From NCBI RefSeq assembly GCF_016863615.1, contig NZ_BOPF01000015.1, positions 124,001 to 188,000 of the forward strand: a stretch of 64,000 bases of DNA, given 5' to 3'. Below, one piece after another: positions 10,418-36,691 of this stretch. A program made the position numbers and the translations under genes. Every line of letters begins with the position of its first letter. Positions within the stretch are counted from its first letter, which is position 1. The stretch comes from Virgisporangium aliadipatigenens (lineage in GTDB: Bacteria; Actinomycetota; Actinomycetes; Mycobacteriales; Micromonosporaceae). The notes beneath the pieces are model-generated. The model was not told the DNA's origin and made no database searches. It saw only the letters and a list, made by a program, of their open reading frames with translations.

Positions 10418-11464
10418 TCAGGCGGTGTTCGCGACCGGGGAAGGGTTGAGCCTGGCGAAGCCTTCCTGGCGTTGGTAAGGGAAATACGGGTAGGGCGCGG
10501 TGCGGGTGCTGGCAGTGTCGAGCCGGGCTGCCTGTTCGGGCGTGAGTGACCAGCCGGCAGCGTCGATGTTCTGCCGCAGTTGCGCCTCGTTGCGGGCGCC
10601 GATGATGACCGTGGCCACCGTGGGTCGTCGTAGGAGCCAGTTGACCGCGATCTGCGGCACTGCTCGGCCGGTCTCGCGGGACAGTTCTTCGAGGACGTCC
10701 ACGACGCGGAACAGGTGCTCATCGTCGACCGGCGGGGCTTGGGCAGCGGTCGCGTGCAGCCGGCTCGTGCGCGGTGGCGGTGTATCGCGGCGGATCTTGC
10801 CGGTGAGCCGTCCCCAGCCGAGCGGGCTCCACACCACGGCTCCGACGCCTTGGTCGAGCCCCAGGGGCAGCAGTTCCCACTCGTAGTCCCGGCCGATGAG
10901 CGAGTAGTAGACCTGGTGGGCCACGTACCGGCGGCGGTGGTCCCGGTCGGCGGCGGCGAGGGACTTCATCAGTTGCCAGCCGGCGAAGTTGGAGACGCCG
11001 AGATAGCGAATCTTCCCGTCCCGTACCAGGTCGTCCAGTGTCGCCACGACCTCTTCGACGGGTGTCGCGGCGTCGAAGGCATGTAGCTGGAACAGGTCGA
11101 TGTAGTCGGTGCCGAGTCGACGCAGCGCCGTCTCGACCGATCGGACGAGACGGGCGCGTGAGGTTCCCGCGTCGTTCGGTCCGTCGCCGGTCGGCAGGCC
11201 ACTCTTGGTCGAGATCAGGACGGCGTCGCGTCGGCCTCTGATCGCCTGTCCCAGCACCTCCTCGGACGCGCCGTCGGAGTACACGTCCGCGGTGTCGAAC
11301 ATGCTGATCCCGGCTTCCAGGCAGATGTCCACGAGGCGTCTTGCCTCCCGGGCGTCCGTATTGCCCCAGGCGCCGAAGAGCGGTCCCGAGCCGCCGAAGG
11401 TGCCGGCGCCGAAGCTGAGGGCGGGCACGCTGAGTCCGGATGCCCCGAGTCGTCGATACTCCAC
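10418..11464 (-). CDS. Aldo/keto reductase
   Basis: A 348-residue NAD(P)H-dependent oxidoreductase with the TIM-barrel aldo/keto reductase fold. The catalytic tetrad is visible: Asp and Tyr in MFDTADVYSDG, Lys in LISTKSGLP, and His in DLFQLHAFD. The phosphate-binding end contains VIIGARNEAQLRQNIDA. It should reduce an aldehyde or ketone; the physiological substrate is not indicated. It is transcribed divergently from a TetR regulator across a 92-base gap containing three similar AT-containing repeats, so repression by that TetR protein is the natural hypothesis. Confidence 0.92.
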   Translation of the reverse strand: MEYRRLGASGLSVPALSFGAGTFGGSGPLFGAWGNTDAREARRLVDICLEAGISMFDTADVYSDGASEEVLGQAIRGRRDAVLISTKSGLPTGDGPNDAGTSRARLVRSVETALRRLGTDYIDLFQLHAFDAATPVEEVVATLDDLVRDGKIRYLGVSNFAGWQLMKSLAAADRDHRRRYVAHQVYYSLIGRDYEWELLPLGLDQGVGAVVWSPLGWGRLTGKIRRDTPPPRTSRLHATAAQAPPVDDEHLFRVVDVLEELSRETGRAVPQIAVNWLLRRPTVATVIIGARNEAQLRQNIDAAGWSLTPEQAARLDTASTRTAPYPYFPYQRQEGFARLNPSPVANTA

Positions 11465-11478
11465 GATGGTCGCCTCCC

Positions 11479-11540
11479 CGTTAAAGGTTCTGCAGTTCCG
11501 TTAAGGCGTCGGCTACGATAGCAGCCACCCGCAGTTAAGG
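11479..11540. promoter_or_regulatory. Candidate TetR operator region with three repeats
   Basis: The intergenic region between the divergent aldo/keto reductase and TetR genes holds three short direct repeats: CCGTTAAAGG at 11479, CCGTTAAGG at 11499 and CAGTTAAGG at 11532. A CTGCAG palindrome with GG and CC at its edges (about 11486-11499) lies between the first two. A TACGAT hexamer at 11514-11519 could be the -10 box for the TetR gene. Local repeats in such a gap are typical of autoregulated TetR pairs, but no binding site is proven. Confidence 0.4.
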
Positions 11541-11556
11541 GAACCGGAGACCCGTT

Positions 11557-12177
11557 ATGGCCGTCGGTGCGATCCGACCCGGAGGACGGACCGCCCGGGT
11601 CCGCGCCGCCGTGCTTCGAGCCGCCGGCGACGCGCTCGTCGAGCACGGCTTCGACCGTCTCGACCTCGCTGACGTGGCGCGCCGCGCCGAGGTGGGCAAG
11701 ACAACGGTCTACCGCCGCTGGGGTACGGTCGCCGGCCTCGTCGCCGACCTGCTGACGGACATGGCGGAGCAGTCCCTGCCGCGAGCCGACACCGGATCGC
11801 TGACCGGGGACCTGCGTGCCAATGCCCGGCTCGTGCAGCGCACCCTGGTGGATCCGCGTCAGGGTGCGCTGTTCCGGGCGGTCATCGTCGCCGCGACCTG
11901 CGACCCCCGCGCCGCCGAGGCTCTGCACCACTTCTACGCCGTCCGCATCGCCGAGTGGGCCCCCTGCGTGGAGCAGGCCGTACGACGGGCGGAACTTCCC
12001 CCGGGCACGGACGCGGCCGAGGTCATCCGCGCCGTCTCGGCACCGCTCTACTACCGCCTGCTCGTCAGCGGAGACCCCATCGACGAGGCCGCGGCGGACC
12101 GGGCTGCCGACGCGGCAGTGGCAGCCGCCCACGCCGGCGTCTACACGACCGCCGGCGGTCCGCAGCCGGTCCGATAG
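11557..12177 (+). CDS. TetR family transcriptional regulator
   Basis: A 206-residue regulator. The N-terminal helix-turn-helix is clear at about residues 14-60 (RAAVLRAAGDALVEHGFDRL, DVARRAEVGKTTVYRRWGTV). The C-terminal ligand-binding domain is all-helical, with DPRQGALFRAVIVAATCDPR and AVSAPLYYRLLVSGDPID, resembling the TetR_C groups in which the last segment lines a ligand pocket. It is divergent from the aldo/keto reductase and probably represses it and itself through the repeats between them. The inducer is unknown. It is followed by a strong stem-loop at 12181-12251. Confidence 0.9.
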   Translation: MAVGAIRPGGRTARVRAAVLRAAGDALVEHGFDRLDLADVARRAEVGKTTVYRRWGTVAGLVADLLTDMAEQSLPRADTGSLTGDLRANARLVQRTLVDPRQGALFRAVIVAATCDPRAAEALHHFYAVRIAEWAPCVEQAVRRAELPPGTDAAEVIRAVSAPLYYRLLVSGDPIDEAAADRAADAAVAAAHAGVYTTAGGPQPVR

Positions 12178-12180
12178 CGG

Positions 12181-12251
12181 CGATCTTGCAGTTGTGGTGG
12201 CGACATAGGCTCTCGAGACCGGGCACGCCGGGCACCACAACTGCAAGATCG
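12181..12251. terminator. Perfect 19-bp inverted repeat between convergent genes
   Basis: Arms at 12181-12199 and 12233-12251 are perfect inverted copies of CGATCTTGCAGTTGTGGTG with a 33-base loop. The structure begins 4 bases after the TetR stop and ends 30 bases before the stop of the convergent secreted hydrolase, so it can terminate both transcripts. There is no U-tract. The arms are less GC-rich than surrounding DNA, which hints that this is a dispersed palindromic repeat family rather than a locally evolved terminator. Confidence 0.65.
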
Positions 12252-18557: not shown

Positions 18558-20483
18558 GTGGGGGCTGTGCGGTGGATCCGCCGGGTCGGGAGCTACGCGG
18601 TCGGCGCGAGCGGAGCGGTGGCCGTGGTCGGCCTCGTCGCCTCCCTCGGGGCCCTCGGCGTGCTGCACGACGCCGAGCGGCACACCGCCGACCGGGAGAT
18701 GGACCGGCGGGTCGCCGCCGCGCGCGCCTCCGTGGAGGCCGAGGCGCGCCGCTACGTGGACGCCACGACCATCGCCGCGGCCGGGCTGGGCGCGCTTTCG
18801 GAGATCACCCCCGCCGGCTTCGAGACCGTCACCGGGCGGGTCGCCGACCTGCGCCTGCCGGGTGCCGCGGCGGCCGTGTTCCTGACGGCGGCCACCACCG
18901 AGACCCTGCCGGCCGTCGAGGCGGACTGGCGCCGGCGCGGTGTCGACGTGACGTTCCAGCCGGCCGGGGCCGGTGCGGGGGAGGCGCGCGAGCACGTGTT
19001 CGTCGTCCTGGGGCGCAGCCTCGACCCGACGCCGGTCACCGTCATGGGCGCCGACGTGACGGTCGTTCCGGAGCTCCGCGAGGTGCTGCTGCGTTCGCGG
19101 GAACGGCGTGCCGTGTCGCTCTCCGCGCCGTACGTGCTCATGCGCGACCGGGGCCTGCCCGCCGAACGGCAGCAGAAGTCGTTCGTGCTCGCGGTGCCGG
19201 TGCCGGACCCCGTGGGCGGCCTGCGCGGGTGGCTGCTGCTGGCGATGCGCGGCAACGCCCTCATGTCCGGGGTGCTCGCCCGCGCCGGCGCCGGGCGGCT
19301 CGACGTGCGGCTGGCGGCGGCGCCGGGCGCGGAGGCGTTCGCCCGGTACAGCACCAGCCGGCCGGCGCACCACGTCGGCGAGACGCTGCTGGTGCGCTCC
19401 ACCGTGGTGCCGGTCGCCGACCGGGAGTGGGCCCTGCACGCCACCGCCGAACGTTCCACCGTGCCCGGCGCCGCCACCCACCTCGACGGGAGCATCGCGC
19501 TGGCCCTGTTGCTGCTCACCGTCATCTGCACCTCGTTCGTCTACGTGCTCGCGACGGCCCGCCAGCGGCTGAGCCAACGGGTCGAGGCGGCCGTCGCGGA
19601 CACCCTTGCCGGGCAGGCCGCCATCGAACGCCTCAACGACGACCTGCGCCGCCGCGGCGAGGAACTGGAGGAGCGCGTCGCGGAGCGCACCCGTGAGGTG
19701 GAGGCGCAGGCGGCCGAGCTGCGCGAGGCGAACGCCGACCTGGAGTCGTTCTCGTACAGCGTGTCGCACGACCTGCGGGCACCGCTGCGCGCCATCGACG
19801 GCTTCGCCAAGATGCTGGAACTCGACCACGCCGCGAGCCTCGATCCGATGGGACGCCGGTGCGTCGCCAAGGTGCGCGCCGGCGCCGCGCGGATGAGCGA
19901 GCAGATCGACGCGCTGCTGGCGTTCTCCCGGATGCAGCGCCAGGCGATGGAACGGCAACCCGTCCACATGGCCGACCTGGTCGACGACGTCTGGGAGGAA
20001 CTCGCCGGGGACCGCGACGGCCGGACGGTCGAACTGGTCACCGAGCCCCTGCCGGCGGTCGACGGCGACCCGCGGCTCGTCCGGCACGTGGTCGCCAACC
20101 TGCTCGGCAACGCCGTCAAGTACACCCGCGGCCGGGACGTGGCCCGCGTGACGGTCGGCGGCGAACCGGGTGACGACGGCCAGGTGACGTTTCGCGTGGC
20201 GGACAACGGCGCCGGCTTCGACATGCGCTACGCGGACCGACTCTTCCAGGTCTTCCAGCGGCTGCACCGGGCGGAGGAGTACGAGGGCACCGGGGTCGGG
20301 CTGGCGCTCGCGGCCCGGATCGTGCACCGCCACGGCGGAAGGATCTGGGCCGAGGCCACCCCCGGCGAGGGCGCGACCTTCTACTTCACCCTCTCCAGCA
20401 GCGCGTCGGAGGCGGGGATCAAGCACACCAACGAGGCCCTGGACGCCGAGGAACGCCGCGCCGCCCCCGCGAACCGCGCCTGA
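18558..20483 (+). CDS. CHASE-domain sensor histidine kinase
   Basis: A 641-residue membrane sensor. A first transmembrane helix (about residues 13-36) leads to an extracellular CHASE-type domain (about 75-240; GADVTVVPELREVLLRSRER, SLSAPYVLM). A second helix spans about 311-332. A coiled coil (340-395) joins to HisKA with the phospho-acceptor H404 in SYSVSHDLRAPLRAIDGF. HATPase_c follows with N box NLLGNAVKYTRG, DNGAGFDM and GTGVGLALAARIV. Extracellular small ligands of CHASE domains include cytokinin-like and other molecules; this ligand is unknown. No response regulator is adjacent, so it is an orphan. GTG 18558 is preceded by a GGAGG site. Confidence 0.9.
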   Translation: MGAVRWIRRVGSYAVGASGAVAVVGLVASLGALGVLHDAERHTADREMDRRVAAARASVEAEARRYVDATTIAAAGLGALSEITPAGFETVTGRVADLRLPGAAAAVFLTAATTETLPAVEADWRRRGVDVTFQPAGAGAGEAREHVFVVLGRSLDPTPVTVMGADVTVVPELREVLLRSRERRAVSLSAPYVLMRDRGLPAERQQKSFVLAVPVPDPVGGLRGWLLLAMRGNALMSGVLARAGAGRLDVRLAAAPGAEAFARYSTSRPAHHVGETLLVRSTVVPVADREWALHATAERSTVPGAATHLDGSIALALLLLTVICTSFVYVLATARQRLSQRVEAAVADTLAGQAAIERLNDDLRRRGEELEERVAERTREVEAQAAELREANADLESFSYSVSHDLRAPLRAIDGFAKMLELDHAASLDPMGRRCVAKVRAGAARMSEQIDALLAFSRMQRQAMERQPVHMADLVDDVWEELAGDRDGRTVELVTEPLPAVDGDPRLVRHVVANLLGNAVKYTRGRDVARVTVGGEPGDDGQVTFRVADNGAGFDMRYADRLFQVFQRLHRAEEYEGTGVGLALAARIVHRHGGRIWAEATPGEGATFYFTLSSSASEAGIKHTNEALDAEERRAAPANRA

Positions 20484-20492
20484 CCCGCCGCC

Positions 20493-20669
20493 TCAGGCGT
20501 CACGGTCGTTCTTCCGGTCGAGGTCGGGCTGCCGCGGCCGCGGATCGCCGACCACCCCCGTTTGAACCGGCCGGGCGACCGTCACGCCGTCCCACAGGTT
20601 CCAGGCGCGGCCCGGGGCCGGCGCGTCCGGAACGCACCGGCACCAGCCCGCCCGGGTCAGCGGCGCCAC
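20493..20669 (-). CDS. Possible small protein, 58 residues
   Basis: After the DUF1707 stop, the minus strand stays open in another frame and encodes VAPLTRAGWCRCVPDAPAPG then RAWNLWDGVTVARPVQTGVV and a charged end (PDLDRKNDRDA). It overlaps the end of the DUF1707 gene by 13 bases. No domain is recognised, and no clear ribosome site supports the GTG at 20669. The gap it fills (20484-20656) is otherwise empty, which is the main reason to list it. Confidence 0.2.
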   Translation of the reverse strand: MAPLTRAGWCRCVPDAPAPGRAWNLWDGVTVARPVQTGVVGDPRPRQPDLDRKNDRDA

Positions 20670-21187
20670 CCCGGACCCCGCCGGTCGCCGCGCTCCCAGC
20701 CGTGGTGGTGCCAGGGGTGGCCGTGGTGGGCCCACGGCGGCTGGGCGCCGTGCATGGCCTGCATCGCCTGCCAGCGTTGCCAGCGGTGGTAGCGGTGCCG
20801 GCGGCCCCTCGTCACCATCAGCAGGAAGATCGCCAGCAGGATCAGCGGGAACACGGGAACGTGGCTGATCGTCGCCAGCACCGCCCACACCCCCAGCACC
20901 ACGAGCGCCACCCCGGTCACCCGGATGCCGTGCCACCGCACGTGCTTGCGGATCTCCTCGCGGTACTCCGGCCGGGCCGTGAAGTCCGTCCAGCCGCCGC
21001 CCGGCAGGTCGTCGACCTGCGGGCTCAGCTCGTCGCGGTACACCGCCGCGTAGACCCGGGCGAGACGTTCCTCGCCCTCCTCCATGGAGAGCCGGCCCTC
21101 GCTCATCGCGGCACGCAGCAGTTCCGCGTACTGTTCGCGTTCCGGGTCCGAGGCCCGGACCCGGTGTGGTTGCTTCTCGTCCGTCAT
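20657..21187 (-). CDS. DUF1707 domain membrane protein
   Basis: A 176-residue protein. The N-terminal DUF1707 domain is plain: RVRASDPEREQYAELLRAAM, SEGRLSMEEGEERLARVYAA, with the typical spacing to ELSPQVDDLPGG. It is followed by a 2TM-like hydrophobic hairpin (GVALVVLGVWAVLATISHVP and FPLILLAIFLLMV) and a His/Trp/Arg-rich cytoplasmic tail (HRWQRWQAMQAMHG, WAHHGHPWHHHGWERGD). The tail might bind metal (inference from the His cluster). It is divergent from the NarL-type sensor kinase. DUF1707 genes often neighbour such kinases, so a shared regulatory region is likely. Confidence 0.88.
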   Translation of the reverse strand: MTDEKQPHRVRASDPEREQYAELLRAAMSEGRLSMEEGEERLARVYAAVYRDELSPQVDDLPGGGWTDFTARPEYREEIRKHVRWHGIRVTGVALVVLGVWAVLATISHVPVFPLILLAIFLLMVTRGRRHRYHRWQRWQAMQAMHGAQPPWAHHGHPWHHHGWERGDRRGPGWRR

Positions 21188-21353
21188 GTCCACCACTTTC
21201 CGATGGAACGGCGGATGCGGCGTCGCCCCGTCGGCGGCACCGGTACTACCACGCTCGATGCCCTCGGGAGCACCGCGTACATCCCCCGTGGTACGCCGGC
21301 ACGGGACCGGCGGGTGAGGCGGCCTCCACCGCGGGTGCCCTAGCGTGGTGGCG

Positions 21354-22814
21354 ATGAGGGACGAGGCCCGCGAGGAACGCCGCCGCCAGCAGCGCGAACG
21401 GCGCCTGCGGCGTGGCCTCCCGCCGGACCCGCCGTGGGGCCACGGCGCGCGTGGGGACGGCAACGGGCCCGCCCGCCAGTGGCACGAGGAGTGGGCCCAC
21501 CGGACGCGGGAACGCCACGACGCCAGGCGCCGGCGCCACGACCGGCTGCACGACCGGTGGCCGCCCGGCCCGGGCCTGGACGGCCCGCCGTGGGCGCGGC
21601 GCATCTCGCCGCAGATGGTGCGTCGGGTCCTCCAGGCGCGGGAACGGCAGCAGCGGCACTCGAACAGCAGCGTCGCCGCGCTGGTGGCCGGGGTGGTGCA
21701 CGTTCTCGGGACGCGCGTCGCGCTCGGTGAAGTGCCCGAGATGCCGACCCTGGCGCTGCTGCTCGTCGGGCCGCTCGCCCTGCTGGTGCGCAAGAGGGCG
21801 CCCGAACTGGCGCTCCTGGTGGCGCTGGCCGCCGCGCTGGCGTTCACGCTGCCGCACGGGATCGTCGCGCCGGTGTTCCTCGCGCCGCTGTTCGCGCTGG
21901 TGCACGCCGTGCAGGAGGGGAAGCGGCGGGCCGCCAGGTGGATCCTGCTCGCGGGGTACGCGGTGTACGTCTTCGCGGGGCGGCTGCTGCCGGAGACGTT
22001 CCACCTGGTGTCGTGGAGCCGGGCGCTCGCGGCCGGTGGCGTGGTGTGGGCGACCTACCTCTTCGCCGAGGGTTCGCGGGCGCGCAATCTCCAGGTGGCG
22101 GCGCTGGCCCGGATCGTCGAGGAGGAGGAACGCGCCGAGGCCGAACAGAAGCGCGCCGCCGAGGAGCAGCAGCGCCGGCAGGCCAGCGAGGAACGCCTGC
22201 GCATCGCCCAGGAACTGCACGACGTGCTGGGCCACCACCTGTCGCTGATCAACGTTCGGGCCGGCGTGGGCCTGCACATCATGGACGAACATCCCGAGGA
22301 GGCCCGCGCCTCGCTGGCGGCGATCAAGGAGGCCAGCGCGGAGGCGTTGCGCGAGGTGCGGGCCGTGCTGGCCTCGCTGCGGGTCGACGAGGACGCCGCC
22401 GCGCCGCGCGCCCCGACGGCCGGCCTCGGCGCGTTGGACGCGCTGCTGGCGGCGGCGGACCCACCCGTGCCGCTGAAGGTCGAGGGCACCGCGCGCGACC
22501 TGCCGCCCGACGTGGACCGCGCCGCCTACCGGATCATGCAGGAGGCGCTGACGAACGTCCGCCGCCACGCCGGCCCCGACGCGCGCGCCACGGCCACCGT
22601 CCGGTACCTGCCGGACGCCGTGGAGATCGCGGTGCGCGACGACGGTCAGGGCGTTCCCCCGGAAAAGCTGGAGGCGGGCAACGGCCTGGCGGGGATGCGC
22701 GAACGGGCGGCCGCCCTCGGCGGTAGTTTGCGGGCCGGGCCGCGCGCGGGCGGCGGATTCGAGGTGGTGGCCGTGCTGCCCCTTCCGAAAGACTCCTTGA
22801 AGGGGGAGACATGA
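21354..22814 (+). CDS. NarL-type sensor histidine kinase (HisKA_3)
   Basis: A 486-residue membrane kinase. The first 100 residues are highly charged (EAREERRRQQRERRLRRG). Four to six hydrophobic helices occupy about residues 105-238, with little extracellular sequence. The cytoplasmic part has a Glu/Ala-rich coiled coil (245-282) and the HisKA_3 phospho-acceptor motif ELHDVLGHHLS with H289. The ATPase carries EALTNVRRHAG, DDGQGV and NGLAGMRERAAALGG. Such kinases often sense membrane or envelope state. The TGA at 22812 overlaps an ATG at 22811 that opens a duplicated fragment of the response-regulator start. The partner regulator follows. Confidence 0.9.
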   Translation: MRDEAREERRRQQRERRLRRGLPPDPPWGHGARGDGNGPARQWHEEWAHRTRERHDARRRRHDRLHDRWPPGPGLDGPPWARRISPQMVRRVLQARERQQRHSNSSVAALVAGVVHVLGTRVALGEVPEMPTLALLLVGPLALLVRKRAPELALLVALAAALAFTLPHGIVAPVFLAPLFALVHAVQEGKRRAARWILLAGYAVYVFAGRLLPETFHLVSWSRALAAGGVVWATYLFAEGSRARNLQVAALARIVEEEERAEAEQKRAAEEQQRRQASEERLRIAQELHDVLGHHLSLINVRAGVGLHIMDEHPEEARASLAAIKEASAEALREVRAVLASLRVDEDAAAPRAPTAGLGALDALLAAADPPVPLKVEGTARDLPPDVDRAAYRIMQEALTNVRRHAGPDARATATVRYLPDAVEIAVRDDGQGVPPEKLEAGNGLAGMRERAAALGGSLRAGPRAGGGFEVVAVLPLPKDSLKGET

Positions 22815-22858
22815 TCCGGGTGGTGCTCGCCGATCTTCCCTTGCGGGGTGACAGGTGA
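22811..22858 (+). other. 15-codon remnant duplicating the start of the response regulator
   Basis: The ATG at 22811 overlaps the kinase stop (ATGA) and opens MIRVVLADLPLRGDR before a TGA. Its first eight codons repeat those of the real regulator (GTG at 22855, MIRVVLAD) at 20 of 24 bases, and its TGA overlaps that GTG. The layout suggests an old 44-base duplication or insertion. The remnant may be translated and couple the kinase to the regulator as a short relay. Confidence 0.6.
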
Positions 22859-23517
22859 TTCGCGTGGTGCTCGCCGACGATCAGGCGCTGGTGCGGGCCG
22901 GCTTCCGGGCGCTGCTCGACGCCCAGCCCGACTTCACGGTGGTGGGGGAGGCCAGCGACGGCGCCCACGCGGTCCGCCTCGCCGCCCAGGAACGCCCCGA
23001 CGTGGTGCTGATGGACATCCGCATGCCCGGCACCGACGGGCTGGAGGCGACCCGGCGGATCGTGGCGGACCCGCGCTGCGCGGACACCCGCATCCTCATC
23101 CTGACGACGTTCGACCTGGACGAGTACGTCTTCGAGGCGCTGCGCGCCGGGGCGAGCGGCTTCCTGGTCAAGGACACCGAGCCGGTCGACCTGCTGCGCG
23201 GCGTGCGTTCCATCGCGGCCGGCGAGGGGCTGCTGTCGCCGGGGGTGACCCGCCGGCTGATCGAGGAGTTCGCGCTGCGCAGCCGGGCCCCGCAGGCGCC
23301 GCGCTCGGTCGACGCGCTCACCGACCGGGAACGTGAGGTGGTGGCGCTCGTCGGTGCCGGTCTGTCCAACGACGAGATCGCCGAACGCCTCGTCGTGAGC
23401 CCCGCGACGGCGAAGACGCACGTGAGCCGGGCGATGACGAAGCTGTCCGCCCGGGATCGGGCACAGCTGGTGGTGTACGCGTACGAGGCAGGGCTGGTCC
23501 GGCCGGGCTGGCTGTAA
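22855..23517 (+). CDS. NarL/LuxR-family response regulator
   Basis: A 220-residue two-domain regulator. The receiver domain shows D8, D9, the phosphorylation site D54 in VVLMDIRMPG, T84-like threonines in LILTTFDLDEY and K106 in GFLVKDTEP. The C-terminal LuxR-type helix-turn-helix is LTDREREVVALVGAGLSNDE followed by IAERLVVSPATAKTHVSRAM. It is the cognate partner of the upstream HisKA_3 kinase. The GTG start at 22855 overlaps the stop of the duplicated remnant. Its TAA lies inside the left arm of the palindrome at 23516-23576. Confidence 0.93.
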   Translation: MIRVVLADDQALVRAGFRALLDAQPDFTVVGEASDGAHAVRLAAQERPDVVLMDIRMPGTDGLEATRRIVADPRCADTRILILTTFDLDEYVFEALRAGASGFLVKDTEPVDLLRGVRSIAAGEGLLSPGVTRRLIEEFALRSRAPQAPRSVDALTDREREVVALVGAGLSNDEIAERLVVSPATAKTHVSRAMTKLSARDRAQLVVYAYEAGLVRPGWL

Positions 23518-23576
23518 GTGGTGGGGAGTTACGCCGGTCATTCGCACTCTATGGCCTGTGTAAGTCCCCACTACTT
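23516..23576. repeat. Near-palindrome, left copy flanking the DUF559 gene
   Basis: Arms of 17 bp at 23516-23532 and 23560-23576 pair with two mismatches (core GTGGGGA and TCCCCAC). An inner pairing of GCCGGTCAT with ATGGCC is also possible. The stops of both flanking convergent genes fall inside the arms, so it may also terminate both. A second copy of the same length lies at 24497-24558 on the other side of the DUF559 gene. Over 57 bases from the GTGGGGA core the copies align without gaps and differ mainly in the 10-base loop and the right arm. Confidence 0.7.
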
Positions 23577-24452
23577 GAGCGCCGCGCGGATCTGCGCCAG
23601 CATCCGCGCCTGAGCGTGCGTCAGGTCGTCGGCGGTGAAGCGCAGCACGGTCCACCCCGCCAGGCGGAGGCGGTTGAGGCGCACGGCGTCCCGGCGGAAC
23701 GTGTCGCGGCCCCGGTGATGGTCGCCGTCGTACTCCAGGCCCACGTGGCGCTCGGGGTAGGCGAGGTCGAGGCGGGCGACGAAGCGGCCGGCGGCGTCGC
23801 GGACGTCGTGCTGCACGACCGGCTCGGGGAGGCCGGCGGTCACCACGGTCAGGCGGAGGCGGGTTTCCATGTGAGATTCCACGCCCTCGCGAGCAAGAGC
23901 CAGAGCCTGGCGGGCGTGGCGCACGTTGCGCCAGTTGGGGTGGGCGTCCAGGTAGGCGGCGATCTCCTGCGGTTTCGTCGCGCGGCGGCCGAGCAGCGCG
24001 TCGACGCCGATCACCGCGGCCGTCAGGTCGGGGTCGCGGGCCAGGTCGAACGCGGTGCGCACCGGCGACGTGACCCGCAACCCGCCGCGCCGCCACACAT
24101 CGGCGCGCTCCAGCGGAGACCGCACCACGCTCAGGCCGGATCGCGACCGCAGGTCGCCGGGGACCGGGACGGTCGCCTCCACCGGATCCGTCGCGCGCCA
24201 CACATCGGCGCCGTAGACGAACGCGGCGGTGCGGCGGCTGAGCGCGGCGTCGGGCGGGAGCAGCAGCGCGGCCGCCTGAGCGCGGGTCACATTGTCGAGC
24301 GTGGCATCCGCGTGCAGGTAGACGTCGCGGAACAGCCGCCGCCAGGCCGTCCCGGCGAGTTGCCCGCGGGTGAGGAGCCCACCGGCGACGGCGGCCGAAC
24401 CGCGAAACGGCACGTATCGGAGATCGACCGGGATGTCAGCGCTTCGGGACAT
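23571..24452 (-). CDS. DUF559 endonuclease-like protein with AbiEi-like N-terminal region
   Basis: A 293-residue protein of a family found in many copies in actinobacterial genomes. The N-terminal half resembles the AbiEi antitoxin-like winged-helix region (LLTRGQLAGTAWRRLFRDVY, ARAQAAALLLPPDAALSRRT-like). The C-terminal domain is DUF559, a Vsr-like PD-(D/E)xK nuclease fold, with HVGLEYDGDHHRGRDTFRRD and LRLAGWTVLRFTADDL; the Asp/Glu near ARLDLAYPERHVGLEYDG are likely metal ligands. Cellular role is not established. ATG 24452 was chosen; a TTG at 24482 is possible. Both ends are bracketed by related 60-bp palindromes, suggesting a cassette. Confidence 0.82.
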   Translation of the reverse strand: MSRSADIPVDLRYVPFRGSAAVAGGLLTRGQLAGTAWRRLFRDVYLHADATLDNVTRAQAAALLLPPDAALSRRTAAFVYGADVWRATDPVEATVPVPGDLRSRSGLSVVRSPLERADVWRRGGLRVTSPVRTAFDLARDPDLTAAVIGVDALLGRRATKPQEIAAYLDAHPNWRNVRHARQALALAREGVESHMETRLRLTVVTAGLPEPVVQHDVRDAAGRFVARLDLAYPERHVGLEYDGDHHRGRDTFRRDAVRLNRLRLAGWTVLRFTADDLTHAQARMLAQIRAALK

Positions 24453-24496
24453 GCGCCGCACGATGCACCGGAGGTCCGACAAAACGCGTGGCGCTC

Positions 24497-24558
24497 ACGT
24501 AGTGGGGACTTACGCCGGTCATCAGGCCCGGATGGCCTGCGCGACTCCCCACCACTTG
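24497..24558. repeat. Near-palindrome, right copy flanking the DUF559 gene
   Basis: This copy has left arm ACGTAGTGGGGACTTAC starting at 24497 and right arm ending ACTCCCCACCACTT at 24556. It shares GCCGGTCAT and ATGGCCTG with the copy at 23516 in direct orientation. Its outer arms also match that copy in inverted orientation (14 bases exactly at the outer end). It sits between two divergent starts, where a terminator would not be expected, which favours a mobile or recombination origin. Confidence 0.7.
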
Positions 24559-24614
24559 TAAGACCGTTTTCGCACGTGTTTCACCTGGGTTGCCTTGACC
24601 CGTCACCGCCCGCG

Positions 24615-25616
24615 ATGATCGAGCGCATGCCGAGCCGCTGGGGCCTCACCATTCCGCTGACCAATGTGCCGCTGACCGATCACGCGCGGATCGTGTCCGC
24701 CGCCGCCGACGCGGGCTTCACCGACTTCTGGTCCGCCGAGACCAACGGCACCGACGCGTTCGTGCCGCTGGCCCTCGCGGCCGGGTGGGCACCGTCGGCG
24801 CACCTGGGGACGGCCATCGTGCCGGTTTTCACCCGGGGGCCGGCGCTGATCGCCATGAGCGCCGCCACGCTCGCCGACGTCGCTCCGGGGCGGTTCACGC
24901 TGGGCATCGGGGCCTCGTCGCCGGCCATCGTCAACGCGTGGAACGGCATCGACTTCGCCGACCCGTTCGGCCGGGCGCGGGATGTGCTGCGCTTCGTGCG
25001 CCGGGCGCTGGCGGGCGAGATGGTGGACGGGGAGTTCGATTCGTTCACGATCCGCCGGTTCAAACTGGAGAAGGTCCCGGAGGTGCGGCCGCGGGTGTCC
25101 CTCGCGGCGCTGCGGCGCGGCATGCTGCGACTGGCCGCGGCCGAGGCGGACGGCGTCATCCTCAACTGGCTCGCCGCCACGGACCTGCCGCAGGTGACCG
25201 CGGAGCTGAAGGAGGCGCCGGCGGACTTCGACGTCGCGGCGCGCATCTTCGTCTGCCCGACCGAGGACGCCGCCACCGCACGCGCGATCGGCAAGCGCCT
25301 CATCGCCGCGTACCTGACCGTGCCGGTCTACGAGAAGTTCCACCGCTGGCTCGGCCGCGGCCCGGCGCTCGACGAGACGTGGCGGCTGTGGGCGGCCGGC
25401 GATCGCAAGGGCGCACTCGCCGCCGTGCCCGACTCCGTCGCCGACGAGCTGATCCTGCACGGCTCGCCGGCGTCGGTGCGCGCGCAGCTTCAGTCCTATG
25501 TGGACGGTGGGGTGAAGACGCCGGTCGCGGCGCTGATCCCGCCGCCCGGCACCGACCTCGCCGCGGCCGTCGCCGCACTGGCGCCGACCGCGAAGGAGGA
25601 CGCGACGTGGAGCTGA
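24615..25616 (+). CDS. LLM-class flavin/F420-dependent oxidoreductase
   Basis: A 333-residue luciferase-like monooxygenase-fold protein. It opens RWGLTIPLTNVPLTDHARIV and contains the family patterns FTDFWSAETNGTDAFVPLAL, LGTAIVPVFTRGPALIAMSA and APGRFTLGIGASSPAIVNAW, which line a flavin or F420 pocket in a TIM barrel. In actinobacteria this subgroup usually uses F420, but the cofactor is inferred. ATG 24615 and ATG 24627 are both possible starts. Its stop overlaps the GTG of the following SDR gene, which has an AAGGAGGA site inside this gene, so the two are translated together. Confidence 0.88.
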   Translation: MIERMPSRWGLTIPLTNVPLTDHARIVSAAADAGFTDFWSAETNGTDAFVPLALAAGWAPSAHLGTAIVPVFTRGPALIAMSAATLADVAPGRFTLGIGASSPAIVNAWNGIDFADPFGRARDVLRFVRRALAGEMVDGEFDSFTIRRFKLEKVPEVRPRVSLAALRRGMLRLAAAEADGVILNWLAATDLPQVTAELKEAPADFDVAARIFVCPTEDAATARAIGKRLIAAYLTVPVYEKFHRWLGRGPALDETWRLWAAGDRKGALAAVPDSVADELILHGSPASVRAQLQSYVDGGVKTPVAALIPPPGTDLAAAVAALAPTAKEDATWS

Positions 25617-26392
25617 CCGACAGGGTCGTCATCGTGACCGGTGCGGCGAACGGGATCGGCGCCGGGCTGGTGCGCCGGTTCGTCGCCGAGGGGGCGCGCG
25701 AGGTGGTCGTCGCCGACCTCGACGGCGATGCCGCCGAGGCGTTGGCGAAGGAGCTGGGCCCCGTCGCGGTCCCGGCCCGCGTGGACGTCACCGTCGAGGC
25801 CGACACCCAAAATCTTGTCGCGGGAACGCTTTCGCGGCACGGCCGGGTCGACCTGTTCTGCGCCAACGCCGGCATCACCAGCGGGGCCGGCACCGACGCC
25901 ACCGACGCGCAGTGGGAACGCACCTGGTCGGTCAACGTGCTCTCGCACGTGTACGCGTCCCGGGCGGTCCTGCCGTCGATGCTCGAACGCGGCAGCGGTT
26001 ACTTCCTCGCCACGTGTTCCGCGGCCGGGTTGCTCACCTCGGTCGACGACGCGCCGTACGCGGTCACCAAGCACGCCGCCGTCGCCTACGCCGAATGGCT
26101 GTCGATCCACTACGGCGACAAGGGGATCCGGGTCAGTGCGCTCTGCCCGCAGGGCGTCGACACGCGCATGCTCCGCGACGGGCTGGACATCGGGCACCGG
26201 GGCGCCAGGGTGACGGCCGCGTCCGGTGCCGTGCTGCCGGTCGACGCCGTCGTCGACGCGGTGGTCGCCGGGCTGGCCGCGGAGGAGTTCCTCATCCTGC
26301 CGCATCCGGAGGTCGCGAAGTACGAGCGGCACCGGGCCACCGACCGGGAACGCTGGCTGGCCGGCATGCGCTCGCTCGCCGCGCAGGCCTGA
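25607..26392 (+). CDS. Short-chain dehydrogenase/reductase
   Basis: A 261-residue classical SDR. The NAD(P)-binding motif is TGAANGIGAG, the structural CANAGI motif follows, and the catalytic residues are Ser in CSAAGLLTS with Tyr and Lys in YAVTKHAA. An acidic residue after the second strand (VVVADLDGDAAE) suggests NAD(H) preference. The end has ILPHPEVAKYERHRATDRER, as in several actinobacterial SDRs. It overlaps the LLM oxidoreductase by 10 bases and is followed after 3 bases by a kinase gene, forming a three-gene operon that may process one substrate. Substrate unknown. Confidence 0.92.
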   Translation: MELTDRVVIVTGAANGIGAGLVRRFVAEGAREVVVADLDGDAAEALAKELGPVAVPARVDVTVEADTQNLVAGTLSRHGRVDLFCANAGITSGAGTDATDAQWERTWSVNVLSHVYASRAVLPSMLERGSGYFLATCSAAGLLTSVDDAPYAVTKHAAVAYAEWLSIHYGDKGIRVSALCPQGVDTRMLRDGLDIGHRGARVTAASGAVLPVDAVVDAVVAGLAAEEFLILPHPEVAKYERHRATDRERWLAGMRSLAAQA

Positions 26393-26395
26393 CGG

Positions 26396-27037
26396 GTGGT
26401 CCGGCCCCAGGCCCTCCCGCCGGCGTTGGACGCCGTGCGGGAGCTGTTGGCGGATCGTCCGGGACGGCTGCTCGTGGGCCTGTGCGGTCCGCCGGCCGCC
26501 GGCAAGTCCACGCTCGCCGCGGCCCTGGCCGCCGCGCTGGTCAATCGCGACGGGGTGAGCGCGGTCGCCGTTCCCATGGACGGGTTCCATCTGGCGAACG
26601 CGGAACTGGCCCGGCTGGGCCTCGCCGACCGCAAGGGCGCGCCGGAGACGTTCGACGCGCACGGGTTCGTGCACCTGCTGCAGCGGTTGCGGGACGCGGG
26701 GCCGGACGTGGTGTACGCGCCGGCGTTCGACCGGGTGGTCAACGAGTCCATCGGCTCGGCCATCCCGGTGCCGCCCGACATCCGGGTGATCGTCATCGAG
26801 GGCAACTACCTGCTGCTCGACTCGCACCCGTGGGACCGGGTGCGGGACATCCTCGACGTGACGCTCTACCTGGACGCGCCGCACGACATGCGCCATGACG
26901 CGCTGGTGCGCCGCCAGCAGGCGCGGGGGCTGTCGCGTTCGGCCGCGCAGGACTGGGCCGCCGGCAGCGACGCGGCGAACGCCCGCATCATCGAGTCGAC
27001 CCGGGACCGCGCGGATCGTGTGCTGACACGTCGATAA
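26396..27037 (+). CDS. Nucleoside/nucleotide kinase family protein (uridine kinase-like P-loop)
   Basis: A 213-residue P-loop kinase. The Walker A motif GPPAAGKST is near residue 30, followed by AVPMDGFHLANAELARLGL, in which the Asp-Gly-Phe-His segment matches the substrate loop of the uridine kinase/phosphoribulokinase/pantothenate kinase group. Further landmarks are KGAPETFDAHGFVHLLQRL and VIVIEGNYLLLDSHPWDRVR. Members phosphorylate nucleosides, sugars or pantothenate-like compounds; the substrate is open. The GTG start lies 3 bases after the SDR stop. The TAA is inside the palindrome at 27031-27044. Confidence 0.85.
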   Translation: MVRPQALPPALDAVRELLADRPGRLLVGLCGPPAAGKSTLAAALAAALVNRDGVSAVAVPMDGFHLANAELARLGLADRKGAPETFDAHGFVHLLQRLRDAGPDVVYAPAFDRVVNESIGSAIPVPPDIRVIVIEGNYLLLDSHPWDRVRDILDVTLYLDAPHDMRHDALVRRQQARGLSRSAAQDWAAGSDAANARIIESTRDRADRVLTRR

Positions 27038-27044
27038 TTATCGA
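27031..27044. promoter_or_regulatory. AT-rich perfect 14-bp palindrome upstream of the SGNH hydrolase
   Basis: TCGATAATTATCGA is a perfect palindrome 12 bases before the ATG of the secreted SGNH hydrolase and overlaps the kinase stop codon. In such GC-rich DNA an AT-rich palindrome in this place suggests a dimeric repressor site, overlapping or close to the promoter of the exported enzyme. The binding protein cannot be named. Confidence 0.45.
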
Positions 27045-27056
27045 TATCGTCGTCGC

Positions 27057-28529
27057 ATGAGGTTTCTCGTGGCCCTGCTCGTGGCCGCCACTGTTGTCGT
27101 ACCCGGACCCGGAAAGGCCGACGCCGCCACGGCCTTTCCCGCACTGCGCATCATGCCGATGGGTGACTCGATCACCTACGGCGTCGGGAGTTCCACCTCC
27201 TCCAGCTACCGCGCCGACCTGTGGAACCTGCTGCGTGGCGAGTTCGCCGTCGACTATGTCGGCGCGCAGCGCTCGGGCCAGCTGCCCGACGCCGATCACG
27301 AGGGCTACTCGGGGCGCGTCATCACCGAGGTGGCGGGGTACGCCGCGTCGGCCGTTCCCCGCTACCGCCCGAACGTCATCACCCTCCACGTCGGCACCAA
27401 CGACATGAACCGCAACGTAAACGTCGCCGACGCGCCCGCCCGCCTCGGCGGCCTCATCGACCAGCTGCTCGCCGCCGCTCCCGACGCCACGATCCTGGTC
27501 GCCACGCTGGTTCCGGCGAACGACCCCGCCGTGCAGGCCCGCATCGACGCCTACAACGCCCGCATCCCCGGTGTCGTGGAGCAGCGCCGCGCCGCCGGCA
27601 AGCACGTGGGTCTCGTGGACATGAGCGCGCTCACCACCGCCGACCTGATCGACACCCTGCACCCGAACGACGCCGGCTACCGCAAGATGGCCGCCGCCTT
27701 CCACGACGGCGTGCTGCGTGCCGTGTTCGCCGGCTGGGTCGGCAGTCCCGTGCCCGACTCGGTCCGCTGCGCGGCGAAGCTCGGCTGGAACTCCCGTGGC
27801 CGCGTCGCCTCCGGCGCCGCTCCGGGCGCCAAGGTCCGGTTCGCCGACTACAACGGCGACGGCCGCGACGACTATCTCGTGCTCGACCCGGCCACCGGCG
27901 CGGTGGACGCCTGGCAGAACAACGGCGGCGACGGCAGCGGCGGCTGGATCAGCCTCGGCCGCGTCGCCTCCGGTGCGGCCCCCGGCGACCGGGTGCGCTT
28001 TGCCGACTTCGACGGCGACCGACGCGACGACTACTGGGTCCTCGACCCGGCGAACGGCGCCGTCCAGGTCTGGCGCAACACCACGTCCGGCTGGGTGAGC
28101 CTGGGTCAGGTGGCGTCGGGCGCGGCACCCGGCGACCGGGTGCGTTTCGCCGACTGGGACGGCGACGGCCGCGACGACTACTGGGTGGTCGAACCGACCT
28201 CCGGCGCGGTCCAGGTCTGGCGCAACACCGGCTCCGGTTGGGCGGCCCTGGGCCAGGTAGCCTCCGGTGCGGCCCCGGCCGACCGGGTCAGATTCGCCGA
28301 CCTGAACTGCGACCGCCGCGACGACTACCTCGTCCTCGACCCCTCGTCCGGCTCGGTGGGCGCCTGGCTCAACCCGACGTGGACCAACCGGGGCCGGGTG
28401 GCCTCCGGCGCGGCGCCGGGTGACCGGGTCCGCTTCGCCGACTTCGACGGCGACGGCCGCGACGACTACCTCGTCGTCGACCCGACGACCGGCGCGCTGG
28501 ACCTCTGGCTCAACTCCGGCGGCGACTGA
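27057..28529 (+). CDS. Secreted SGNH hydrolase with C-terminal FG-GAP-like repeats
   Basis: A 490-residue exported protein. A signal peptide (LVALLVAATVVVPGPG, cleavage near ADAA) precedes the SGNH/GDSL esterase domain. Block I is GDSIT with S38, block III is GTND with N115, and block V is D199-T-L-H202. Residues about 244-490 hold five repeats of 45-50 residues with the consensus RVASGAAPGDRVRFADFDGD then GRDDYLVLDP. These repeats carry DxDGDGxDD calcium-binding-like motifs and would form a beta-propeller-like module. It probably deacylates a polysaccharide or ester outside the cell (inference). The 14-bp palindrome at 27031 may regulate it. Confidence 0.9.
   Translation: MRFLVALLVAATVVVPGPGKADAATAFPALRIMPMGDSITYGVGSSTSSSYRADLWNLLRGEFAVDYVGAQRSGQLPDADHEGYSGRVITEVAGYAASAVPRYRPNVITLHVGTNDMNRNVNVADAPARLGGLIDQLLAAAPDATILVATLVPANDPAVQARIDAYNARIPGVVEQRRAAGKHVGLVDMSALTTADLIDTLHPNDAGYRKMAAAFHDGVLRAVFAGWVGSPVPDSVRCAAKLGWNSRGRVASGAAPGAKVRFADYNGDGRDDYLVLDPATGAVDAWQNNGGDGSGGWISLGRVASGAAPGDRVRFADFDGDRRDDYWVLDPANGAVQVWRNTTSGWVSLGQVASGAAPGDRVRFADWDGDGRDDYWVVEPTSGAVQVWRNTGSGWAALGQVASGAAPADRVRFADLNCDRRDDYLVLDPSSGSVGAWLNPTWTNRGRVASGAAPGDRVRFADFDGDGRDDYLVVDPTTGALDLWLNSGGD
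27790..28520 (+). repeat. Five tandem DNA repeats encoding FG-GAP-like units
   Basis: The 3' half of the SGNH hydrolase gene consists of five tandem units of about 135-150 bases, each encoding VASGAAPGDRVRFADxDGDx and a DDYxVLDPxxGAVxxW segment. The nucleotide similarity between units is high (shared blocks such as GCCTCCGGTGCGGCCCC), so slippage or unequal exchange can change the copy number. The fourth unit has an NCDRRDDY variant that breaks the Asp ladder. Confidence 0.8.
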
Positions 28530-36612: not shown

Positions 36613-36643
36613 GTATTGACTGATTCCCTTGTCAGCACAGGCG

Positions 36644-36676
36644 AAACGGGCGGGTGCCCGTCGCACCCGCCCGTTT
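36644..36676 (-). terminator. Strong stem-loop terminator
   Basis: A perfect 14-bp inverted repeat (AAACGGGCGGGTGC at 36644-36657, GCACCCGCCCGTTT at 36663-36676) with a 5-base loop follows the minus-strand EF-hand-like membrane gene by 15 bases. The transcript ends its stem with U residues, as in intrinsic terminators. It isolates this gene from the ChaB-like gene. Confidence 0.8.
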
Positions 36677-36691
36677 CTTCGGGGGAATTGC

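Follow-up and report, generated by a model that had tools for sequence, protein, structure and literature searches.

What kind of element is a nuclease-like gene that stands between two long palindromes of one family? The question is raised by a locus in the window, by which we mean the whole stretch of 64,000 nucleotides analyzed here, located at G000:C15:124001-188000 in the 10.3-Mb draft genome (G000) of its host, Virgisporangium aliadipatigenens. The locus, called the cassette below, consists of a gene of the DUF559 family (PF04480, E 2.1e-6) with a palindrome at each end. It probably represents one copy of a selfish element in two parts: a DUF559 nuclease gene framed by its own palindromes, and many gene-less palindromes elsewhere in the genome. 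The features are:

23516..24559, no strand: cassette palindrome-DUF559-palindrome, ~1.04 kb
23516..23578, no strand: left palindrome, arms ~25 bp, loop ~11 nt
24497..24559, no strand: right palindrome, of the left one's family, arms more degraded
23571..24482, minus strand: DUF559 (PF04480) gene, 303 amino acids counted from TTG
23889..24446, minus strand: part with a predicted AbiEi-antitoxin-like fold, residues 13-198
23574..23876, minus strand: part with a predicted Vsr / I-Bth0305I-like nuclease fold (PD-(D/E)XK, EDxHD type), residues 203-303
22855..23517, plus strand: flanking LuxR-type response regulator gene, kept at empty sites
24627..25616, plus strand: flanking luciferase-like monooxygenase gene, kept at empty sites

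As direct copies, the two ~62-bp palindromes are 77% identical over 60 nt, and because each is itself a palindrome, they also match as an inverted pair (79% complementary over 73 nt). Both contain GCCGGTCAT and ATGGCCTG in direct orientation, and 14 bases of their outer arms, AAGTGGTGGGGAGT, match when one copy is inverted. The left palindrome starts inside the stop codon of the response regulator gene and includes the stop codon of the DUF559 gene, and is placed between convergent stops; the right one lies between the start of the DUF559 gene and the divergent luciferase-like gene. All this agrees with a preliminary description made from the sequence alone, which had reported two related palindromes of the same length bracketing one DUF559 gene, with shared direct blocks, inverted outer arms and a right copy between divergent starts. 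The ATG at 24452 is a likelier start of the gene than the TTG, and the alignment rows of several relatives begin there. Each outer end of the cassette has the motif TGTAAG, perhaps by chance.

In a palindrome scan of the window with a home-made score, 14 matches reached a score of at least 13, compared with 1-3 in each of four Markov controls. The left palindrome ranked first (16.5) and the right one third (14.5); the second place was taken by a perfect hairpin at 36643-36677 with 15-bp arms and a 5-nt loop, which has an ordinary terminator-like size. The left-arm pattern, with up to 3 mismatches allowed, was matched three times in the window, always within the two palindromes (mean in shuffles 0.00, n=100), and the left palindrome folded as single-stranded DNA far better than its shuffles (z -4.0). 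The DUF559 gene is free-standing and intergenic, and an Rfam scan of 20000-28000 gave zero matches up to E 1. The cassette gene is a DUF559 gene and not a DDE or other known transposase, as judged from a scan of the called gene among the mechanical open reading frames. Among the four neighbour genes scanned, none encodes a methyltransferase, and no AbiEii toxin gene adjoins.

When the joined flanks of the cassette were used as a query, a match across the junction was found in the congener G001. In G001 (L295) and in a further congener, G002 (L310), the kinase, regulator, luciferase-like and short-chain dehydrogenase/reductase genes follow in the host's order with a nucleotide identity of ~69-83%, and less than 100 bp separates the regulator from the luciferase-like gene. 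The DUF559 gene and the palindromes are absent from the syntenic locus in both of these congeners, the two that were found. Palindromes standing at this locus in relatives that lack the gene, which according to the preliminary description would speak for ordinary dispersed repeats, were thus seen in neither. By parsimony, the cassette was probably gained in the lineage of G000; alternatively, it could have been lost in both congeners. In a search for the empty sites of 12 solitary host palindromes in eight genomes, no junction-spanning match was among the matches listed; the whole cassette alone gave one.

Groups of syntenic loci from Micromonospora, Phytohabitans and other genera showed presence and absence of palindromes of other families. 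The best cases, L139:20276-20341 versus L136 and L178:6309-6380 versus L144, were near-clean but imprecise, and we do not rely on them. The former belongs to a further palindrome family with two copies in 20 kb of Phytohabitans maris (the other at L139:6149-6200), both lacking at the syntenic places in P. suffuscus (L136); the gene before one of them is, judging by its translation, presumably groEL. The latter is a 72-bp palindrome of Micromonospora tulbaghiae that is unrelated to the local DUF559 palindrome and is missing from the same place in M. marina (L144).

The palindromes of the window belong to a family dispersed in the host genome. A covariance model (R1) built from eight copies in this genome detected ~35 distinct sites in G000 when 150 of 1876 candidates were scored at first look, and more may exist; with stricter filters it gave 0 matches in G001 and 3 matches in 2 places in G002. 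The family is therefore not special to the window gene, and palindromes do occur throughout the genome without DUF559 genes. The preliminary description had taken such a finding as an argument for ordinary dispersed repeats, and literally it was made; however, a system like that of repetitive extragenic palindromic (REP) sequences and REP-associated tyrosine transposases (RAYT) predicts the same. Among R1 sites between two genes called with a home-made gene caller, 21/34 were located between convergent genes, compared with 15/125 other gene pairs at the same loci (p 1e-8), and 2/34 between divergent genes, compared with 27/125. In a structure-free alignment of 33 copies, from which the weak sites L080 and L083 were excluded, double changes occurred at 17 of 25 arm pairs, in 63 cells versus a shuffled mean of 26, and 0 of 500 shuffles reached 63. 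Therefore, we conclude that the arms have been kept complementary. At L004:1570-1630, the stop codon of the neighbouring ABC ATPase gene is followed, as judged by eye, by a short sequence similar to the C-terminal end of that gene, as if a duplication of the gene end had taken place near the palindrome.

The host genome has 8 DUF559 matches above the Pfam cut-off, and a long palindrome is found at an end of six of these genes, in five of the six at the 3' end. A paralogue on C2 that is 82% identical to the window gene has at its 3' end a palindrome that belongs to the window family but has diverged, and the homology of this paralogue to the window stops where the right palindrome begins. The other four genes have other palindrome sequences (L089, L092 and L093 at the 3' end, L090 on the 5' side). 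Most other DUF559 genes that carry palindromes do not have the one of the window gene but one of their own. In L093, the palindrome belongs to a larger element of ~92 bp, which also comprises a small side hairpin and, in 14 aligned copies, has sharp ends beyond the palindrome. This element occupies 20 distinct places in G000, one of them adjoining its DUF559 gene, and the contexts of 15 of these places and of one L089-family site were convergent in 7, codirectional in 7 and divergent in 2 cases (n=16). The L092 paralogue (G000:C31:7395-8341) gave two overlapping matches, one with an internal TGA, and therefore looks decayed; it retains a ~67-bp palindrome at its 3' end. Taken with the filled and empty sites, the 82% identical second gene copy and the DUF559 genes elsewhere with their own palindromes support the mobility of the cassette that the preliminary description had proposed; its further proposal that the nuclease is the mover is a matter to which we return below.

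The association of DUF559 genes with palindromes extends well beyond the host. At 22 of 29 DUF559 loci of relatives (L102-L130), a palindrome with a score of at least 14 lies within ~250 bp of the match. We then scanned contigs with a DUF559 protein alignment and, disregarding palindromes in the choice, kept the best 80 loci (the named loci) from a total of at least 574. Their taxa include Micromonospora, Actinoplanes, Planomonospora, Actinomadura, Pseudonocardia, Jiangella, Curtobacterium and metagenome-assembled genomes (MAGs) of Frankiaceae and Chloroflexi/Dormibacterota. At score 17, a palindrome lies no more than 250 bp from an end of the match in 35 of these loci, compared with 1.5 expected from flank density, and 8/80 have palindromes at both ends. 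In a gene-level control at the same score, 34/55 DUF559 genes had a palindrome at an end, compared with 54/870 other genes (Fisher p 5e-24), where 25 of the 80 loci yielded no scored DUF559 call and further DUF559 genes were counted as 'other'. At score 21, the enrichment was found both on the 5' side (14/55 versus 5/870, Fisher p 1e-14) and on the 3' side (16/55 versus 18/870). Chance as the sole explanation is ruled out by the shuffle test and by this gene-level enrichment.

When palindromes at the same locus were paired, the two partners matched as copies in 19 of 22 pairs and at 12 of 15 loci, compared with 9 of 2000 random between-locus pairs; pairs that share a locus are not independent. 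The reverse test started from palindrome pairs of one family with a spacing of 0.6-1.8 kb, at loci that had been selected for DUF559. A DUF559-type open reading frame lay inside 21 of 22 such pairs (17 of 18 loci), and the remaining pair surrounded another gene. At L195 (Pseudonocardia eucalypti), two identical 62-bp palindromes at 11124-12195 frame a second, previously unrecognised DUF559 gene (11165-12067, minus strand) that was reached via its palindromes; it lies ~3 kb from the query gene and has a different palindrome. By eye, the outer arms of many distinct families (for example L157, L159, L169, L170, L172 and L207) contain GATC followed by A/T and TG (GATCATG, GATCTTG), which may reflect a common origin or a recognition core that the families share.

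To follow the specificity of the families, we took 22 palindromes found at DUF559 loci and searched 16 genomes with all of them together, scoring up to 23 first-look candidates per genome. Matches were obtained in all 16 genomes, 5 to 52 in each with both strands counted, and among the matches listed each genome matched only its own palindrome or palindromes. Dispersed copies with 81-97% identity were among the matches listed in 10 genomes (G000, G003, G008, G018, G034, G035, G062-G065), and the source locus only in G011, G012, G048, G061, G066 and G067. In Actinoplanes, the genus of G065, one palindrome family was present in 5 of 67 genomes, three of which had 4 matches or more. Of the 67 genomes, 21 contained DUF559 relatives at E 1e-30, including 4/5 genomes with the palindrome and 3/3 with at least 4 matches (Fisher p 0.03). 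By eye, the nearest Actinoplanes DUF559 relatives often have the outer palindrome motif in common and differ in the inner arms, and several others have no palindrome. The Y1 transposase PF01797 was absent in 14 of the 16 genomes, including G000, in a search aimed at that transposase family only; the same search was positive in 5 of 14 control genomes. This absence rules out RAYT-driven REPs as the sole explanation.

An AlphaFold2 model computed from an alignment of 55 window and locus proteins had a predicted local distance difference test (pLDDT) value of 95 and a predicted template modelling (pTM) score of 0.89. Residues 13-198 of the model resemble the AbiEi antitoxin 6y8q (Z 11.4, root-mean-square deviation 5.6 over 177); within this part, residues 62-198 are similar to MenT1 as well, a nucleotidyltransferase (8an5, Z 10.3). 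Residues 203-303 are similar to the I-Bth0305I catalytic domain (3r3p; Z 12.4, 2.4 A over 91 residues), to 3hrl (Z 11.9) and to Vsr (1cw0, Z 10.5), and the sequence matches an I-Bth0305I-like fold with E 0.021. At E 0.01, Pfam assigns DUF559 to 52/55 of the aligned proteins and AbiEi_1 (PF09407) to 24/55; the window protein scores 18 bits against PF09407, under the curated cut-off of 22.2. According to the model, the protein is thus an AbiEi-like domain joined to a Vsr/I-Bth0305I-like nuclease. Since E206, D239, H256, D265 and R268 are invariant across the 55 sequences, and E250 nearly so, the nuclease is probably active.

How could such an element move? Probably as a dimer, each subunit contacting one arm, the DUF559 protein would recognise its cognate palindrome as a duplex or as an extruded hairpin. 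The protein would then cut in or close to the palindrome, and the repair that follows would copy the palindrome to new sites. Through recombination between the flanking palindromes, the whole cassette could be copied to new sites as well, and such recombination could carry it into a solitary palindrome. Insertions would persist mostly downstream of genes, and most of all where two genes converge; behind a gene, a role of the hairpin in ending transcripts may favour them. According to a review (PMC3943268), the target on which I-Bth0305I forms a dimer is nearly 60 bp long, a length similar to that of one palindrome here. A dimeric nuclease fits a symmetrical ~60-bp site. By analogy, the closest and best reading is a REP/RAYT-like system in which the DUF559 nuclease would replace the RAYT. 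In a bolder form, to which we give an even chance, AbiEi-Vsr fusion nucleases would be the engines of widespread, undescribed selfish DNA, each recognising its own ~60-bp palindrome as a dimer and homing this palindrome or the cassette to new sites via a double-strand break and repair, with nuclease and palindrome co-evolving and each lineage filling with its own hairpins.

Several observations weigh against the two-part selfish element. Many DUF559 genes have no palindrome: this applies to 2 of 8 in the host, to 7 of the 29 loci of relatives and, for palindromes of score 14.5 within 400 bp, to 26 of the 80 named loci. Some of the loci with palindromes on both sides are related to each other: L137 and L160 both come from Plantactinospora, and L170 and L181 come from one strain. 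Of the palindromes far from the query gene, 46/49 match neither the local nor any other DUF559-adjacent family, and some of these may be further families. In Actinoplanes, G129 has one palindrome match and no DUF559 match at E 1e-30, and in the multi-copy genome G081 the closest DUF559 match is split in two, with a stop in one of the pieces. Divergence is seen among the R1 copies, and in the first eight of them arm covariation was no greater than in shuffles. The right window copy is degraded and folds as single-stranded DNA only weakly better than shuffles (z -1.4; 23 of 200 equal it), and no target-site duplication was established at the cassette when one was sought. Palindromes at gene ends may be kept as terminators whatever moved them. 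Finally, binding, cutting and mobilisation of the palindromes by the DUF559 protein are steps that we infer.

The terminator function leads to the first of the other explanations, in which the palindromes are ordinary long hairpin terminators, bidirectional between convergent genes, and two of them flank the DUF559 gene by chance. The excess of R1 sites between convergent genes (21/34 versus 15/125), the left window copy between convergent stops and the covarying arms, which suit an RNA hairpin, speak for this. We nevertheless consider it unlikely in view of the 5'-side palindromes (14/55 DUF559 versus 5/870 other genes at score 21), the fixed ends beyond the palindrome common to the L093 copies, the lineage specificity of the families among the matches listed, the right copy between divergent genes and the absence of the left palindrome from two congeners. 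T-run terminators as the sole explanation were rejected, with 0 sites in 22800-25000 in a scan that is ill-suited to this organism. Alternatively, the palindromes could be operators of the AbiEi-like domain, so that DUF559 proteins would repress themselves and a scattered regulon, the families having spread by drift or duplication. AbiEi antitoxins bind inverted repeats, an AbiEi-like domain is present, and palindromes adjoin DUF559 genes. However, only 2/34 R1 sites lie between divergent genes, and 5/6 host DUF559 genes with a palindrome have it at the 3' end; the nuclease residues are invariant across 55 sequences, and presence and absence of the whole cassette demands mobility too, which together leave this explanation with a low probability.

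Movement in trans by an unrelated transposase, with the palindromes resembling miniature inverted-repeat transposable elements and the DUF559 genes being passengers or exploiters of the palindromes, is similarly improbable. Against it stand the 21/22 same-family pairs that enclose DUF559-type genes (at loci chosen for DUF559), the different palindrome of each DUF559 gene, as for a dedicated partner, and the lack of the Y1 transposase in 14/16 genomes in the search aimed at that family only. It would account for gene-less copies being far more numerous than DUF559 genes, and for the extra end sequence of the L093 element outside its palindrome. If, on the other hand, only the cassette were mobile, gene-less palindromes could be scars left when recombination between flanking palindromes deleted the gene, as for solo long terminal repeats. 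The window palindromes are direct repeats, and the flanking copies are identical in L107 and L195, which is in its favour; yet ~35 (R1) and 20 (L093) sites stand against two and one cognate genes, the L116 copies are in opposite orientation, and the flanking palindromes of 53-62 bp are short for homologous recombination, and we regard this origin as very improbable.

The palindrome-DUF559 arrangement recurs in Actinobacteria and Chloroflexi/Dormibacterota MAGs, many of them soil bacteria, with different scattered repeats in each genome. This recurrence points to a small mobile element of a type not yet described, which the DUF559 nuclease would drive. In the open-access literature, as far as titles and the beginnings of abstracts tell, no link between DUF559 and palindromes was found. 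If the two-part selfish element is real, it would provide a function for a nuclease family of unknown function, the large DUF559 family, and a candidate enzyme for the dispersed palindromes of RAYT-less genomes. REP-like selfish repeats would then have arisen with unrelated enzymes, and the present system would be a PD-(D/E)XK counterpart of REP/RAYT. The long 'terminator-like' hairpins of actinobacterial genomes may be mobile elements, and if the nuclease cuts its own palindrome, the nuclease/palindrome pairs would form a natural library of long-site endonucleases.

Among known systems, the locus resembles REP/REPIN-RAYT systems (REPtrons; PMC3116915, PMC8266576, PMC3733652) in its dispersed extragenic palindromes, lineage-specific families, solitary non-autonomous copies and a nuclease gene flanked by its cognate palindrome, the latter here not at every gene. 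It differs from them in that the enzyme belongs to DUF559 (Vsr/EDxHD-like), carries an AbiEi-like domain and is not an HUH Y1 transposase (PF01797), the palindromes are longer, mostly 50-80 bp, the hosts are Actinobacteria and Chloroflexi/Dormibacterota MAGs, and there is no general GTAG/CGTC tag; by eye, GTAG/GTGG stands at the outer ends of the window copies but is lacking in other families (L107, L093 and L170). The EDxHD homing endonuclease I-Bth0305I (3r3p; PMC3943268) shares the catalytic-domain fold; no intron was found here, however, and the gene has its own flanking palindromes, with gene-less palindromes dispersed. Vsr and DUF559 proteins such as Caulobacter VsrA (PMC12907096) share the nuclease fold and the DUF559 domain, whereas the proteins described here have an extra AbiEi-like N-terminal domain and a linkage to palindromes. 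The AbiE type IV toxin-antitoxin system (6y8q) is similar in the AbiEi-like residues 13-198, but here no AbiEii toxin gene adjoins and the AbiEi-like domain is fused to a nuclease. Palindromic families without a dedicated transposase have been noted before, namely CGTC-tagged REPs without a RAYT (PMC3733652); these are likewise RAYT-less palindromic repeat families, reported without a dedicated enzyme, whereas the palindromes described here are linked to a candidate one.

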